Source: Candidatus Uhrbacteria bacterium (GTDB lineage Bacteria > Patescibacteriota > Patescibacteriia > 2-12-FULL-60-25). Taken from it: 59,522 nucleotides of DNA. The position numbers and the translations under genes were made by a program. Shown piece by piece: positions 37,644 through 59,493 of the stretch; within the stretch, counting starts at the first letter, position 1, and the number at the start of each line of letters is the position of its first letter. The notes under the pieces were generated by a model, which saw nothing but the letters and a program-made list of their open reading frames with translations, was not told the DNA's origin and did no database searches. The stretch covers positions 1 to 59,522 of the forward strand of contig JAHBAS020000001.1 in the NCBI GenBank assembly GCA_018499965.2, given 5' to 3'.

Positions 37644-37686
37644 AATCCACCTTGGTTTTGCCGTACTCATTGTTCGTGCCGATCTC

Positions 37687-37730
37687 AAACCCACCCCTAA
37701 CCCCTCCCTTCGGCAAGCCGAAAGGAGGGG
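37687..37730 (-). repeat. Palindromic repeat family B, copy 2
   Basis: The reverse complement matches 2595-2638 at 38 of 44 positions. The inner stem is TTCGGC/GCCGAA here against TTCAAC/GTTGAA there, so two base pairs have changed on both sides while pairing is kept. Located between mreB and a GT4 gene. Confidence 0.8.
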
Positions 37731-37759
37731 AGCTTGAAGATGCGACCCCTTTGCTCGCG

Positions 37760-38920: not shown

Positions 38921-38963
38921 TACCGCGCTCAAGTCCCCTGACAAGGGGATTTAGGGGTTCTAT
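38921..38963 (+). repeat. Palindromic repeat family A, copy 2 (left boundary of the lipoprotein islet)
   Basis: Almost identical to 2661-2703 over 43 bp, and in the same orientation as the copy at 44374-44405. It lies just after the GT4 gene stop. Confidence 0.87.
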
Positions 38964-39474: not shown

Positions 39475-41052
39475 ATGAAGAATCTACAGGTTGTGTTCGG
39501 TTTGATCGCTTCATTGGTTGCGCTCAACGGTTGTGCAGACGGAATGTTCCATAGCTGTGAGGAGACGGATAGTTGCGCCGGCGCAGCTGGTCAAGGTGGC
39601 GAAGATTCGTCATCGGAAGCTGGCGGCAAGGCGGCAACGACCACGGCGATCATGGCAACCGGCGGTGCGGTAACGACGACGAGCGCGGGCGGAAGTTCGA
39701 GCTCGACAACGTCATCCACTGGCGGAACGACTGCAACGACAGCGTCCACTGCGCCCGCGTGTGATCCACTGAAGGCCGAGAACTGCGATTGCGGGAACGG
39801 CGTTATCGGTGCTCAGTGGTGGCAGGGCGATTGCAAAGCGAAGAACGCTTGCGTATGTCCGCCATCGACGAATACGGGTACGGGCGGTGCAACGTCAACG
39901 ACGACAACGTCTGTTGCCGGATCATCTTCCGTGACCGCGACTGGTGGTCAATCGTCCGTTGCAACGGGCGGAGCTGGAACGGGTGGCGCAACAACCACCT
40001 CTACGACTCCGACTGGTTCAACGGTGGTCCTGCGCTTCTATGCGCCGGATTCCGTAACGTGGCCGAACTTCGTTCTGGCAGTGACTGGTCTGATGCAAAA
40101 GGACTATTCCTGCACGGGCGATGCGATCTTCCGTGAGTGCACGATTCCGAATGTCAGCCTGGCTTCGTCGCGGCAATTCTATGCTTCGACGGGTTTGACT
40201 GGCGCTGGCTCGTGGGTTCCCGGCAAGGACGGCGTTTCCGGACAAGCGCAAGCGTATGCCAAAGCGGTGTACGTCTATCGTTTGAACGGCAACGTTCTCG
40301 AACCGATGAGTTTCCGTTTCGTCTCTAACCCAGAAGGAACGGGATTCAACTTCGAGTGGTTCGCGAATGGCGTTCGTCCCGGAAACGCGGATGACGATCG
40401 AAGCGGTTTGGCCTCGCCAAATGACTGCAACGACGGCAATCCCACGATCGATAGCGGAAGTCTCTGTTCCGCATCAACGCTTCCCATTACGGGCGGCGGC
40501 GGACCGGATCTCACGACCGGAACTGGTGGCGCTTCAAGCGTTACCGGTGGCGGCGGACCGGATTTGGTCGGCACGGGCGGTACCACGAGCACATCAACGT
40601 CCTCAACGGTTCGCGATGTCCAGATTGACTTCATCCATACGGATACGAATGTCACGCTGAACGGCGACTCGGCAAGGGCGGAGATGATTGCTCCTACGTA
40701 CAAGAGCACCACGTGTTCTTCGATGAACGTGCCTGATCCCGCATGGAACGGTCAGATGATCAAAGGGTGGCGATGTCGCCTCTCATCGGTCGATCTCACG
40801 AAAGAGACGATCATGCAGGGGTATGTCGGCTCGCTCTATCTGGCACGCTACGTTTGCACGACCACGGGTTGTGGAACGAATGAACGGGTTGCTTCAAGTG
40901 ACTTTCGCGCGTACGCATACTACGCCGACGGGTCATCCATGATTCCACTCGCGTCACTCGACCAAGGCCGAGCGAATTGGAGCCGTACGATGTGGCTCCG
41001 CTTCACGGACGATCGCAGCACGGTCCACGCAGTCATTCCGGCATCAATGTAA
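39475..41052 (+). CDS. Surface lipoprotein with Gly/Thr/Ser-rich repeats (islet gene 1)
   Basis: A 525-residue lipoprotein. Signal MKNLQVVFGLIASLVALNGC, lipidated Cys at residue 20. Residues about 35-180 are low-complexity (TTTAIMATGGAV, SSSSTTSSTGGTT, GTGGATSTTTTS) interrupted by a Cys module CDPLKAENCDCGNG...CVCPP. Then two β-rich domains (about 180-320 and 375-525) with paired Cys, separated by an acidic loop NADDDRSGLASPNDCNDGNPTID that resembles MopE-type calcium/metal-binding motifs, and by GGGGPDL/TGTGGASS linkers. I infer a long flexible stalk with two globular heads. The family is not recognised. Downstream lies a 105-bp element shared with islet gene 3. Confidence 0.85.
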   Translation: MKNLQVVFGLIASLVALNGCADGMFHSCEETDSCAGAAGQGGEDSSSEAGGKAATTTAIMATGGAVTTTSAGGSSSSTTSSTGGTTATTASTAPACDPLKAENCDCGNGVIGAQWWQGDCKAKNACVCPPSTNTGTGGATSTTTTSVAGSSSVTATGGQSSVATGGAGTGGATTTSTTPTGSTVVLRFYAPDSVTWPNFVLAVTGLMQKDYSCTGDAIFRECTIPNVSLASSRQFYASTGLTGAGSWVPGKDGVSGQAQAYAKAVYVYRLNGNVLEPMSFRFVSNPEGTGFNFEWFANGVRPGNADDDRSGLASPNDCNDGNPTIDSGSLCSASTLPITGGGGPDLTTGTGGASSVTGGGGPDLVGTGGTTSTSTSSTVRDVQIDFIHTDTNVTLNGDSARAEMIAPTYKSTTCSSMNVPDPAWNGQMIKGWRCRLSSVDLTKETIMQGYVGSLYLARYVCTTTGCGTNERVASSDFRAYAYYADGSSMIPLASLDQGRANWSRTMWLRFTDDRSTVHAVIPASM

Positions 41053-41059
41053 CCCTCAA

Positions 41060-41164
41060 TCACCTCGAGTCATTCTCATATGATTCGTTGTAATCTCCTC
41101 AATCCCTGATTCTCTTGCATGCGTTTTCGAACGCAAGTAATCGAGAGTCAGGGATTTTTGGTTT
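41060..41164 (+). repeat. 105-bp direct repeat downstream of islet gene 1
   Basis: 99 of 105 positions match 44255-44359, which lies downstream of islet gene 3. It contains a conserved 5' part (CATTCTCATATGATTCGTTG) and a terminator hairpin. Confidence 0.92.
41101..41157 (+). terminator. Terminator of islet gene 1
   Basis: ATCCCTGA pairs with TCAGGGAT, with inner CTC/GAG and GCGTT/AACGC stems, followed by TTTTTGG. Confidence 0.88.
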
Positions 41165-41198
41165 GCTAATCCGTACATCCTTCAGACCGTAAATAGCG

Positions 41199-41271
41199 AA
41201 AACCCCCAGATCCTAGACGGATAGGGGGTTCTTATGAAGAGGTTTGGTCCCGCCGTTATTTCAGGCGGGAC
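41199..41271 (-). terminator. Tandem hairpins terminating islet gene 2 (minus strand)
   Basis: On the minus strand GTCCCGCC/GGCGGGAC, then AACCCCC/GGGGGTT, which is followed by TTCGC. Both lie shortly after the stop at 41310 and converge on the terminator of gene 1. The bases between 41165 and 41198 show nothing further. Confidence 0.75.
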
Positions 41272-41309
41272 GTTCTCCCTCTTCTAGTTGTAATTGCAAT
41301 CGTTCGCGA

Positions 41310-42164
41310 TCAGGTGTTGGTGCTACCAGCCGTGGCAGTGGTTCCGCCAACGCTGGTTGCGCCAGCTACTGCGCTGGTGCCACCTGCTGCCGAGGATCCG
41401 CCGGTGCTCGATGCGCCGCCAACTCCAGTGGCTCCACCTGTACCAGTTGCCGCTGATCGGCCGGGTAGTGCCGGGGTGCAGATGTGCGGTAGGGCCGCGA
41501 GGCTTCCTACTTGTCCGATTTGGGATGGTAGGGCCACGGGTATGCACGTTTGACCAGAGGCACATGCCGTTGTGGGACAGGTGTTTGCGTAACAAGCTGG
41601 ACCAGTTGCCGGGCTCAGGATGTAGCAAGCTTCGCCTGTTCCGCAGACCGGGTCCGTGATGGCGCTTCCGCAAAGTTCCACGGCGGTAGGCGACCCAAGT
41701 GTGACGCTGGCGCTGCCAACTCCGAACACTACCTCTTCGATGGTAGTGTCGTAGTAGTACTGCATGTTGATAGCGACCGGTGCTGTCTGACCCACGGCGA
41801 CCACGACCGGCGTCGGAGTGGTTCCGGAGAATGTGCAGCCCGTATAGTTCGAGGAACTGGCCGCTGGAGGCGTACAGACCGGATTGGGGATGCTGACGGT
41901 ATAGGTGTCCGGCAACAGGATGATTTCGATCGGCGCGACGTTGGAGCAGTTCGGATTCGAGACAGTATATACGTTCGAATTCGTGGTACTCGTGAAGACG
42001 ATGTCTCCGGTTACGCAGTAACCAGTGTTGTCGCCCGTCGTCGAGAGTTTCATCTGAGCCGTGCCCATTGACTGTTCGGTCGGGCTGTCGCTGTTGCTGC
42101 AACCGCTGAGGGCTGCTGCGATGATTGCAATTGTGGAAAGACCGAATAGATTGAACTTTCGCAT
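41310..42164 (-). CDS. Surface lipoprotein with Cys module and TGGA repeats (islet gene 2)
   Basis: A 284-residue lipoprotein on the minus strand. Signal MRKFNLFGLSTIAIIAAALSGC, lipidated Cys at residue 22. A β-rich domain (about 40-150; CVTGDIVFTSTTNSNVYTVSN, PIEIILLPDTYTVSIP, VVFGVGSASVTLG) is followed by a Cys module (CGSAITDPVCGTGEACYIL...CPTTACASGQTCIPVA) and a C-terminal tail of Gly/Ala/Thr/Ser repeats (TGTGGATGVGGASSTGG). It is clearly paralogous to the first 240 residues of islet gene 3 but ends after the repeats. AGGAAG precedes the ATG at 42164; a longer in-frame start at 42281 overlaps the promoter. Confidence 0.85.
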   Translation of the reverse strand: MRKFNLFGLSTIAIIAAALSGCSNSDSPTEQSMGTAQMKLSTTGDNTGYCVTGDIVFTSTTNSNVYTVSNPNCSNVAPIEIILLPDTYTVSIPNPVCTPPAASSSNYTGCTFSGTTPTPVVVAVGQTAPVAINMQYYYDTTIEEVVFGVGSASVTLGSPTAVELCGSAITDPVCGTGEACYILSPATGPACYANTCPTTACASGQTCIPVALPSQIGQVGSLAALPHICTPALPGRSAATGTGGATGVGGASSTGGSSAAGGTSAVAGATSVGGTTATAGSTNT

Positions 42165-42207
42165 TTTTCTTCCTTCGCTCCCTTGTGTGCTTGTGTTCAC
42201 GATGCTT

Positions 42208-42224
42208 GTTCCCAACATGGGAAC
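42208..42224 (-). other. Leader hairpin of islet gene 2
   Basis: GTTCCC and GGGAAC form a perfect 6-bp stem with a 5-nt loop in the leader of about 80 nt between the minus-strand promoter and islet gene 2. Confidence 0.5.
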
Positions 42225-42252
42225 CTGACTTGATGAAAGCAACGTGGGTCGG

Positions 42253-42281
42253 ACAGTAGATGAAATTGGAAAACTTGTCAA
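42253..42281 (-). promoter_or_regulatory. Promoter of islet gene 2
   Basis: On the minus strand TTGACA (complement of 42276-42281) and TACTGT (complement of 42253-42258) are 17 bp apart. The 42282-42432 stretch between the divergent promoters is AT-rich with no gene seen. Confidence 0.75.
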
Positions 42282-42432
42282 GCCCCCTTAGTAAAATTTT
42301 ATTTTTTTCTTATCAGTCATAACCCTTTTTGATAAAAATTATGCTTTGTAAAGCTATTTTTTAGGAAAAAGTCTATTTGTATAGAGTATTTGGCAATGTG
42401 CTTTTGATCTTTTCATGAGCTGCCATATATAC

Positions 42433-42461
42433 TTGACTATTTTTCAAGTTTAGTGTACGTT
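42433..42461 (+). promoter_or_regulatory. Promoter of islet gene 3
   Basis: TTGACT (42433-42438) and TACGTT (42456-42461) are 17 bp apart, divergent from the islet gene 2 promoter. Confidence 0.7.
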
Positions 42462-42489
42462 CGCAGCGTTATCGTTTTTTGGATTTTTT

Positions 42490-42519
42490 CGAGTTGCTCC
42501 GAAACCCGCGAGCAACTCG
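42490..42519 (+). other. Leader hairpin of islet gene 3
   Basis: CGAGTTGCTC and GAGCAACTCG form a perfect 10-bp stem around a 10-nt loop in the leader. No T tract follows, so it is more likely a 5' stabiliser or regulatory structure than a terminator. Confidence 0.6.
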
Positions 42520-42572
42520 GGGGTGGAGGATGTAGATAACATGGTAGGTAAACAACAAGAGTGGAGGTCAGG

Positions 42573-44237
42573 ATGAAACCAAGTCAAGCTCTGTTTGCAC
42601 TTTTGACAGTGCTCATGGCGATATTCGCCACGGGCTGTGCAGAAGACAAAATGTCTGGCGACGGCAACGTCGGCAAGGCAAGCGTCGCTCTTCAGTCTCC
42701 GGCAGGGGATTGCGTCACGGGTACGATTCAGATCCGCAATAGCAGCAATGCTATCGTTTCGAGTATCGCCACGGATTGCACGGATGCTTCGCAGGAAGTC
42801 ATTCTCCAGCCCGGCGATTACACGATCGGCATGGCATCGGGGTACACCTGCAATCCTGCAGGAACTCCGGATACGGGATACGTGGATTGCACGTACCTCA
42901 CATCCAATCCGAGTCCGTTCCATGTGAGCGTAGGCGTCCGAACGCAGGTGTCGTTGAACTTCCAGTTCAACTACGAGAATCGGAATGTCGCTGTCGTCTT
43001 TGGCGTGGGGTCGGTAGACCTTACGCTCGGCGATGCCGGTGTTCAGAATCTTTGTGGTTCGGGAACGTCCGCGCGTACATGTACGACGGACGAAGTCTGT
43101 GCGGTGCTAGACAACGTCACGCCTCCGCGGTGCTACACCAAGTGTGGTACCACGGGGATCGCGTGTGCAACCGGACAGGTTTGCATTCCCGTCGCGACGC
43201 AAATCGCGACGACATCAACAGATCCCACGCTCGTTCTCGTTTCGATCGGCTCGCAAGCCAATCTGCAAACGATCTTGCATCTCTGTGCTCCAGGAACGTC
43301 TGGTGCTGGTGGTGCGAGTGGGACTGGTGGTACGTCGGGTGTTGCTGGAAGTAGTTCAGCTGGTGGTTCAACCACGAATGGTGGAACGACTGGCGTTGCC
43401 GGAAGTAGCGGTACCCTCGGCGGCGCATCAAGCGCCGGCGGAACCGTTTCAACCGGTGGCGCGAGCGCAACTGGTGGTACGACGGCTCAGCCGGGCATGA
43501 CTTGCTCTGCTGCAGGCGTAACGGTTAGTTGTACGATCACGAATTGCGCCCAGGCGGCAATTATTTGCACGGACAGTGGAAATGGTCTCGTGTGGGGCGG
43601 ATGCGTATGTCTTTCGTCCGGTACCGGCGGTGCATCGAGCACTGGCGGCACTTCCTCAGTCGGTGGCACGAGTGCAACCGGTGGCGTTACAGCCGCAGGT
43701 GGTACTACGGCAACCGGCGGAACGACTGGTACGGCTGGATCAACGGGTACGCCGTTCCCGGTCGCATGCACGGCAGGGCAGCAAGTGATTCGTTTCGACG
43801 CGAATAACATCGTTGTCGGACCGGTTCATGACGTGCCCTTCCCCGGCAGTAATGCCATTCGGTTCGAAGGCATGCGTGTGTCGCTTGGTACGTGGGGCGC
43901 GTTGTGTTCGGATCTCGATTCGAGCAATTTCACATTCACCTGCGTCACCTCGTGGACATCCGGACTCTGGGAGTTTCAGATGTACATGCCGATGGCAGGT
44001 GCATACGGAAATGAGATCTACTGGGGTGACCGTAATTACTACGGCCCTGGTTGTCCCGCACAATGGGGCGGAAGCGGTTCCACGCTTGGAACACTTACCG
44101 TCGCTCCCTGTTTGGATCAGGCGCATCCGTACACGATCTCACTCGTCGGAAATCTGACGTGGCGCGATCCGAATGCGGCTACGCATTGTGAAGCAAACGA
44201 GATGCTCAGCTACAACGGACAGGTCCTCATTCCGTAG
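42573..44237 (+). CDS. Surface lipoprotein with Cys modules and TGGT/TGGA repeats (islet gene 3)
   Basis: A 554-residue lipoprotein. Signal MKPSQALFALLTVLMAIFATGC, lipidated Cys at residue 22. The first 240 residues align with islet gene 2 (CVTGTIQIRNSSNAIV, EVILQPGDYTIGMASG, VVFGVGSVDLTLGD, CGSGTSARTCTTDEVCAVL...ACATGQVCIPVA). Two low-complexity blocks (about 248-310 and 352-392; SGAGGASGTGGTSGVAG, TGGTSSVGGTSATGG) bracket a Cys module (CSAAGVTVSCTITNC...GNGLVWGGCVC) like that of gene 1. A C-terminal β-rich domain (about 398-554) has several Cys. GGAGG precedes the ATG. The repeat blocks could vary in length between strains. Confidence 0.86.
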   Translation: MKPSQALFALLTVLMAIFATGCAEDKMSGDGNVGKASVALQSPAGDCVTGTIQIRNSSNAIVSSIATDCTDASQEVILQPGDYTIGMASGYTCNPAGTPDTGYVDCTYLTSNPSPFHVSVGVRTQVSLNFQFNYENRNVAVVFGVGSVDLTLGDAGVQNLCGSGTSARTCTTDEVCAVLDNVTPPRCYTKCGTTGIACATGQVCIPVATQIATTSTDPTLVLVSIGSQANLQTILHLCAPGTSGAGGASGTGGTSGVAGSSSAGGSTTNGGTTGVAGSSGTLGGASSAGGTVSTGGASATGGTTAQPGMTCSAAGVTVSCTITNCAQAAIICTDSGNGLVWGGCVCLSSGTGGASSTGGTSSVGGTSATGGVTAAGGTTATGGTTGTAGSTGTPFPVACTAGQQVIRFDANNIVVGPVHDVPFPGSNAIRFEGMRVSLGTWGALCSDLDSSNFTFTCVTSWTSGLWEFQMYMPMAGAYGNEIYWGDRNYYGPGCPAQWGGSGSTLGTLTVAPCLDQAHPYTISLVGNLTWRDPNAATHCEANEMLSYNGQVLIP

Positions 44238-44254
44238 CGTCTCTCGCTCCTTTT

Positions 44255-44359
44255 CACCTCGAATCATTCTCATATGATTCGTTGTAATCTCCTTGATCCC
44301 TGATTCTCTTGCTTGCGTTTTCGAACGCAGGCAATCGAGAGTCAGGGATTTTTGGTTTC
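44255..44359 (+). repeat. 105-bp direct repeat downstream of islet gene 3
   Basis: 99 of 105 positions match 41060-41164, including the terminator hairpin. Confidence 0.92.
44297..44355 (+). terminator. Terminator of islet gene 3
   Basis: The same hairpin as at 41101-41157 (ATCCCTGA/TCAGGGAT with inner stems), followed by TTTTTGG. Confidence 0.88.
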
Positions 44360-44373
44360 TTGTGAGAAATTCC

Positions 44374-44405
44374 AAGCCCCCTGACAAGGGGATTTAGGGG
44401 TTCTT
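44374..44405 (+). repeat. Palindromic repeat family A, copy 3 (right boundary of the lipoprotein islet)
   Basis: CCCCTGACAAGGGG palindrome with the TTTAGGGGTTCT tail, same orientation as 38921-38963. The O-antigen-ligase-like gene promoter begins right after it. Confidence 0.87.
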
Positions 44406-59461: not shown

Positions 59462-59493
59462 AGAACCCCTAAATCCCCTTGTCAGGGGACTTT
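59462..59493 (-). repeat. Palindromic repeat family A, copy 4 (inverted)
   Basis: The reverse complement reads AAAGTCCCCTGACAAGGGGA with the TTTAGGGGTTCT tail, like copies 1-3. Located downstream of the S-layer-like gene terminator. Confidence 0.85.

Follow-up and report, generated by a model that had tools for sequence, protein, structure and literature searches.

Intrinsic terminators of bacteria consist of a stable stem with a T-run directly after it, located just behind the stop codon of a gene, and are usually shorter than ~56 nt. A stable fragment could also be released from a structured 3' end that carries a terminator, as for the small RNAs (sRNAs) derived from 3' untranslated regions (UTRs) of enterobacteria. 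A further class are repetitive extragenic palindromes (REPs), bacterial interspersed mosaic elements (BIMEs), REP doublets forming hairpins (REPINs) and miniature inverted-repeat transposable elements (MITEs), which are intergenic, palindromic and found behind genes (PMC3733652, PMC3116915). For REPs, roles in termination and in stabilisation of messenger RNA (mRNA) have been hypothesised (PMC3733652). We describe a 105-bp element, termed E, which occurs twice within positions 1 to 59,522 of contig JAHBAS020000001.1 from an uncultured Candidatus Uhrbacteria bacterium (GCA_018499965.2), a stretch of 59,522 nt called the window hereafter. The two copies, E1 and E2, lie behind two different lipoprotein-type genes, lipo1 and lipo2.

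Like an intrinsic terminator, E has a stable stem, a T-run directly after it and a position just behind the stop codon. In contrast to this class, its terminator is longer (~56 nt with an interruption), a small extra hairpin lies upstream, and the whole unit exists in two near-identical copies behind non-homologous genes. With the 3' UTR-derived sRNAs E shares a structured 3' end with terminator, but it lacks sequence conservation in the relatives searched and a known target. REPs, BIMEs, REPINs and MITEs are multi-copy, whereas E has two copies; a 32-bp repeat next to E2 fits this class better.

Probably, the terminator unit of one gene was recently copied locally to the neighbouring gene and kept there for terminating transcription. 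This copying is most likely a real but fairly ordinary event. No paper was found by searching 'Uhrbacteria' with 'lipoprotein', or 'Candidatus Uhrbacteria' with 'surface protein', and among the matches listed for duplicated terminators, 3' UTR stabilisers and repeats nothing concerned this case in the accessible parts of the sources.

Two copies of one 3' end

E1 (41060-41164, 105 bp) and E2 (44254-44358, 105 bp), the 3' UTR and predicted intrinsic terminator of lipo1 and lipo2, respectively, belong to one locus, lie in the same orientation on the forward strand and are 3194 bp apart. Alignment and recount confirmed the agreement at 99 of 105 positions (94%, ungapped) given by the initial annotation. 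Its first interval is correct, while the second, 44255-44359, was placed one base late; this is a coordinate slip, since only 27 of 105 positions agree in that frame. The longest exact run common to both copies is 30 bases. Beyond the 105 bases the ungapped identity falls abruptly to about chance level, with 5/20 positions on the left and 4/20 on the right. E1 starts 7 bases past the stop codon of lipo1 and E2 16 bases past that of lipo2.

The whole-genome search proposed earlier was run on the complete available assembly (1.11 Mb, 94.4% complete). A 126-base BLAST query around E2 recovered E1 with an expect value of 1.2e-41, which excludes a chance likeness, followed by only two matches of 17-19 bases (expect values 0.2-0.8). 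A covariance model of the pair found the same two places, plus the palindromes of their long stems on the other strand. Two copies are present in this assembly, and neither BLAST nor the covariance model revealed a third.

The genes in front of E do not resemble each other. Lipo1 (39475-41052, forward strand, 525 aa) carries a lipoprotein-type signal peptide ending in LNGC, as judged by eye, together with Gly/Ser/Thr-rich stalks, and has no Pfam match. Lipo2 (42573-44237, forward strand) comprises 554 aa from its ATG, the open reading frame as listed starting at GTG 42561; signal peptide and Gly/Ser/Thr-rich stalks were again recognized by eye, and no Pfam match lies above the cutoff. Where strongly diverged coding sequences had been assumed, the difference is real and goes beyond divergence: blastp with low-complexity masking finds no similarity between lipo1 and lipo2 at an expect value <= 1e-3.

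Structure of the element

RNA folding revealed a short spacer after the stop codon, a first hairpin (HP1), a largely unpaired linker, the long stem of a second hairpin (HP2) and a T-run. Thus, E is a discrete 3'-end unit of the mRNA, consisting of a 3' UTR and a predicted rho-independent terminator. HP1 has eight pairs and a 6-base loop and reads CGARTCAT-TCTCAT-ATGATTCG, namely CGAGTCAT-TCTCAT-ATGATTCG in E1 (41066-41087, forward strand) and CGAATCAT-TCTCAT-ATGATTCG in E2 (44260-44281, forward strand). HP2, the long terminator stem, spans 41101-41156 in E1 and 44295-44350 in E2 on the same strand, with a TTCG loop and TTTTT closing its 3' end. The initial annotation had linked the terminator hairpin to CATTCTCATATGATTCGTTG in an ambiguous sentence; these 20 bases lie in and just after HP1, which is a separate upstream hairpin, and the predicted terminator is HP2.

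The 115-base stretches fold with -43.5 kcal/mol for E1 and -49.8 kcal/mol for E2, corresponding to z scores of -7.6 and -9.2 against shuffled sequences, and none of 200 shuffles equalled either copy. In both copies HP2 forms the stable stem-loop of an intrinsic terminator, and with the T-run directly after the stem both pass the terminator rule used in the survey of gene tails described below.

Of the six differences between E1 and E2, the linker holds one and stem positions hold five. Among the latter, three leave a standard pair intact in E1 as well as E2 (G-U/A-U, A-U/G-U and G-U/G-C), while the other two face each other, as A-A in E1 and U-G in E2.

Rfam 15 gave no match at the gathering cutoff across the whole window, so that no known RNA family was recognized. 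In each copy a reading frame of nine codons (ATGATTCGT...TGA) begins within HP1; inspection by eye showed no ribosome site, and the frame was set aside. Palindromes resembling HP1 with <=3 mismatches were counted 18 times on the forward and 19 times on the reverse strand, versus once on each for the reversed pattern; the two patterns differ in word composition, and nothing was drawn from this excess.

Distribution among relatives

E was searched in a 57-genome set (56 relatives and its own genome), which overlaps with a 41-genome family set (40 others and its own). BLAST gave some match at an expect value <= 1 in 35 of the 57 genomes, the own genome included, and the best foreign match covers 20 bases (expect value 0.0185). 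No clear copy was detected in the 56 relatives by BLAST or the covariance model, and the 40 further genomes of the family set contained none at an expect value <= 0.001. Exact 20-mers of E were absent from the genome_contigs and viral_contigs collections. The initial annotation had named the lack of conservation in relatives as an outcome that would refute its reading, and at sequence level this is what the search gave. A phage or plasmid origin was rejected, as phage sequences gave no match and plasmids a single weak partial one (30% of the query, expect value 0.08).

Two covariance matches in relatives deserve mention. A match to the model, termed R1, in genome G014 (19.2 bits under stricter filters) is a chance hit, since it lies antisense within a prfB-like coding sequence, a gene named by eye from its translation. 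The other, of 18.2 bits, was found in locus L075 of a genome of the same genus, in the 3' UTR of the lipo2 counterpart, which is the right place but the same noise level as in G014. Compared with the tail of E2, the L075 tail reaches a z score of 3.5, the highest of 62 comparisons, and of 10000 shuffles 50 aligned as well with the E2 tail and 433 with the E1 tail. However, part of the best local alignment is out of register, and scores at least as good were reached by 11 of 10334 windows from loci of the relatives, so that this likeness, not beyond background, gives no more than a weak hint that lipo2 may have been the original owner and donor of E. Within its own genome the L075 tail is not duplicated: besides itself only short matches were found, the best with an expect value of 0.012 over 23 bases.

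The corresponding loci were located through the neighbouring wzy-like protein, an alignment of which was used for scanning. This yielded 21 loci, six of them from Candidatus Uhrbacteria, including three from the same-genus genomes G001-G003. Upstream genes could be read for 19 loci, as L076 and L090 start within the wzy-like gene. Of these 19 loci, 13 have one or two long lipoprotein-like genes rich in Gly/Ser/Thr, recognized by eye, which precede the wzy-like gene and vary in orientation. The remaining six have short flanks (L075, whose flank holds the end of the lipo2 counterpart, L085, L088 and L091) or other genes (L078 and L092). Where the flank suffices, a glycosyltransferase gene and mostly a gene which we take to be TrmB-like precede the lipoprotein-like genes, again by eye. 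In the window, the order is glycosyltransferase, lipo1, lipo2 and wzy-like gene, the first and last being named from Pfam matches.

Relatives of lipo1 and lipo2 are adjacent in L074, which is the same record as G003 (expect values 3.5e-6 and 1.3e-17, respectively); for lipo2, the relationship concerns its C-terminal head. The tails of these counterparts, which come from the closest relative that could be read, resemble neither each other nor E. Among the four loci with two same-strand lipoprotein genes a shared tail is found in the window only, and none at L074, L082 and L084. In L084 there is one inverted likeness of 38 bases beyond the tails.

Other observations concern these lipoprotein regions. 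Intergenic duplications between lipoprotein genes occur in L083 (6674-8036, 668 bp at 98%) and in L089 (7424-7777, 127 bp at 100%). In L083, L086, L089 and L093 the last hairpin behind lipo1 is preceded by a purine-rich linker (about AAGGAGG..ACTCGAGGCG) that appears similar by eye. Residues 88-146 of lipo1 match with 44% identity at the end of contig C31 (L095 3365-5059, genome G000) in another lipoprotein-like gene, whose tail is unreadable because the contig ends inside it.

Origin of the second copy

The probable course of events would be as follows. E would have arisen once, behind lipo1 or lipo2, with the weak hint toward lipo2 given above. After the split of this lineage from its sequenced relatives, local ectopic recombination or template switching may have copied E to the other lipoprotein gene, where it would have replaced or extended the old terminator. 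The retained copy would end transcription and insulate the wzy-like gene downstream as well as lipoX, a convergent gene between lipo1 and lipo2. Terminator stems in general slow 3' exonucleases, and the structured 3' end left by E may do so as well. On this account E would be retained because it works as a terminator and would change little because its stems must pair. A recent gene-end conversion, as considered in the initial annotation, is supported with respect to copying; since no homology is left outside E, a copied or inserted unit fits better than conversion between homologous gene ends.

Several points weigh against local copying of a terminator. A simpler and narrower terminator rule of the scanner listed neither HP2, probably owing to the length and interruption of the stems, and termination of transcription at HP2 is a prediction. 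A further copy of E could be missing, because the assembly is 94.4% complete. There is no homology outside E to account for the priming of the copying, and inspection of the flanks by eye showed neither a target-site duplication nor microhomology. The edges of E match functional boundaries, which would also fit selection trimming a longer, old duplication. Finally, six random substitutions were simulated with four transition weights, 4000 trials being run for each. With E1 as ancestor, the stability of E2 was reached in 0.03-0.08% of the variants (P 0.0003-0.0008) and as few broken pairs in 0.7-5% (P 0.007-0.049), a hint that structure was selected and not simply copied. When E2 was taken as ancestor, random variants reached the stability of E1 in 20-27% (P 0.20-0.27) and as few broken pairs in 6-25% (P 0.06-0.25). 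With either copy as a conceivable ancestor, these tests are mixed evidence for structural selection, which any terminator would face. The largely retained pairing is no proof of a special function, since termination alone would require it.

A fair rival to local copying, although an unlikely one, is the addition or rearrangement of the segment between the copies by a crossover through E. Here, a 3.2-kb unit of lipoX, lipo2 and E2, or an older form of it, would have joined lipo1-E1 by a single crossover, leaving the repeats as scars of the cassette. In line with this, the direct repeats enclose exactly one such unit, and gene number and orientation of the locus vary between relatives. LipoX (41310-42167, reverse strand) encodes a lipoprotein-type protein of 285 aa and has its paralogue in the N-terminal part of lipo2 (36.5% across 301 aligned positions). 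Over about 230-240 bases, the divergent intergenic region 42168-42572 between the two genes can be aligned to its own reverse complement, an alignment made with no shuffle control. With its shared N-terminal parts, the lipoX/lipo2 region resembles an old head-to-head duplication including the promoter, and both the shared part and the partly self-complementary upstream region would suit such a junction. On the contrary, L074 already has a lipo2 relative downstream of its lipo1 relative, and lipo2 therefore need not be a recent arrival. On its own strand, lipoX has a different terminator-like hairpin (about 41200-41231, reverse strand), which converges on E1.

Selection beyond termination is improbable too. 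E would then yield a stable 3'-derived sRNA or act as a stabiliser that co-regulates both lipoprotein mRNAs, with HP1 and the linker as the active parts. HP1, which lies outside the terminator proper, has one difference in 22 bases and keeps its pairing, and the stability test with E1 as ancestor favours selection. A hairpin ahead of the terminator was found in 12 of the 24 lipoprotein tails in which a terminator was detected (26 examined), including all three of the window; this frequency is not significantly distinct from that at ends of other genes (16/48 with a terminator, 80 examined; Fisher p 0.21), and the two-hairpin tail was rejected as a trait of lipoprotein genes. The tail rule is crude: it finds no terminator in two of the 26 lipoprotein tails (L086 and L089 lipo1) and scores L074 lipo2 as single-hairpin, though a second hairpin comes after. 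Control genes were called with a home-made codon model; calls scoring <20, gaps of <70 bases and the lipoprotein interval were left out. One promoter-like match (9/12) overlaps HP1 of E2, but the region contains fewer such matches than shuffled sequences (3 versus a mean of 4.9). Considering also the lack of an Rfam family in the window and of sequence conservation in the relatives searched, there is little positive evidence for a special sRNA or stabiliser role; it is possible but not needed to explain the repeat. The initial proposal of selection on such a 3' UTR function is unsupported, with two copies only, none clear in relatives and no shared tails in L074, L082 and L084.

That E serves a variable surface-lipoprotein locus of Uhrbacteria as a shared 3' module, providing both a common RNA 3' end and homology for cassette exchange, appears very unlikely. 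If it were true, terminators would serve as cassette borders, and stalk-and-head lipoprotein cassettes would be exchanged, added or lost.

Even less probable is a small mobile or repetitive element of the REP or MITE type that stands behind these genes by chance: HP2 is palindromic, the edges are sharp and the dispersed 32-bp repeat follows 14 bp after E2, but this neighbouring repeat has 33 listed matches in the genome, the query included, against two copies of E, no target-site duplication was seen by eye and E1 is not beside the 32-bp repeat, and a mobile element was rejected on the two copies. A false join of two contigs in E during assembly of the metagenome bin can hardly account for the repeat, as the copies differ at six places, the longest exact run is too short to make misassembly likely (no run > 30 bases), and the gene order from glycosyltransferase to wzy-like gene matches an independent genome (L041).

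Local copying of a terminator unit would suggest that such a unit as a whole can pass from one gene to a non-homologous neighbour. Should further examples turn up in these small genomes, copying of this kind would be a simple route for the spread of 3' ends. The variable locus of stalked lipoproteins between the glycosyltransferase and the wzy-like gene may in addition matter for the attachment of Uhrbacteria to other cells.

Repeats next to the element

The dispersed repeat behind E2 (44373-44404, forward strand) is not part of E. It is palindromic, reads CAAGTCCCCTGACAAGGGGATTTAGGGGTTCT and is often extended by CTTAGTACCGCGCT or a similar sequence to about 45 bp. In the window, further copies are located at 2670-2701 and 38930-38961 on the forward and at 59462-59492 on the reverse strand, and others in loci L054-L071. 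The 33 BLAST matches listed for the genome refer to an expect value <= 10, and 23 of them, again including the query, to <= 2e-4. Inverted pairs spanning about 100-220 bp occur at six places, and a seventh pair spans 40 bp. Among the 57 genomes, the repeat was found at an expect value <= 1e-4 only in its own genome (20 matches) and in G032 (one match of 30 bases). It resembles a MITE or REPIN belonging to this lineage. Finally, the window contains a 63-nt inverted repeat (2590-2652 and 37673-37735) with arms that are 83% complementary, the first of which adjoins a copy of the dispersed repeat.

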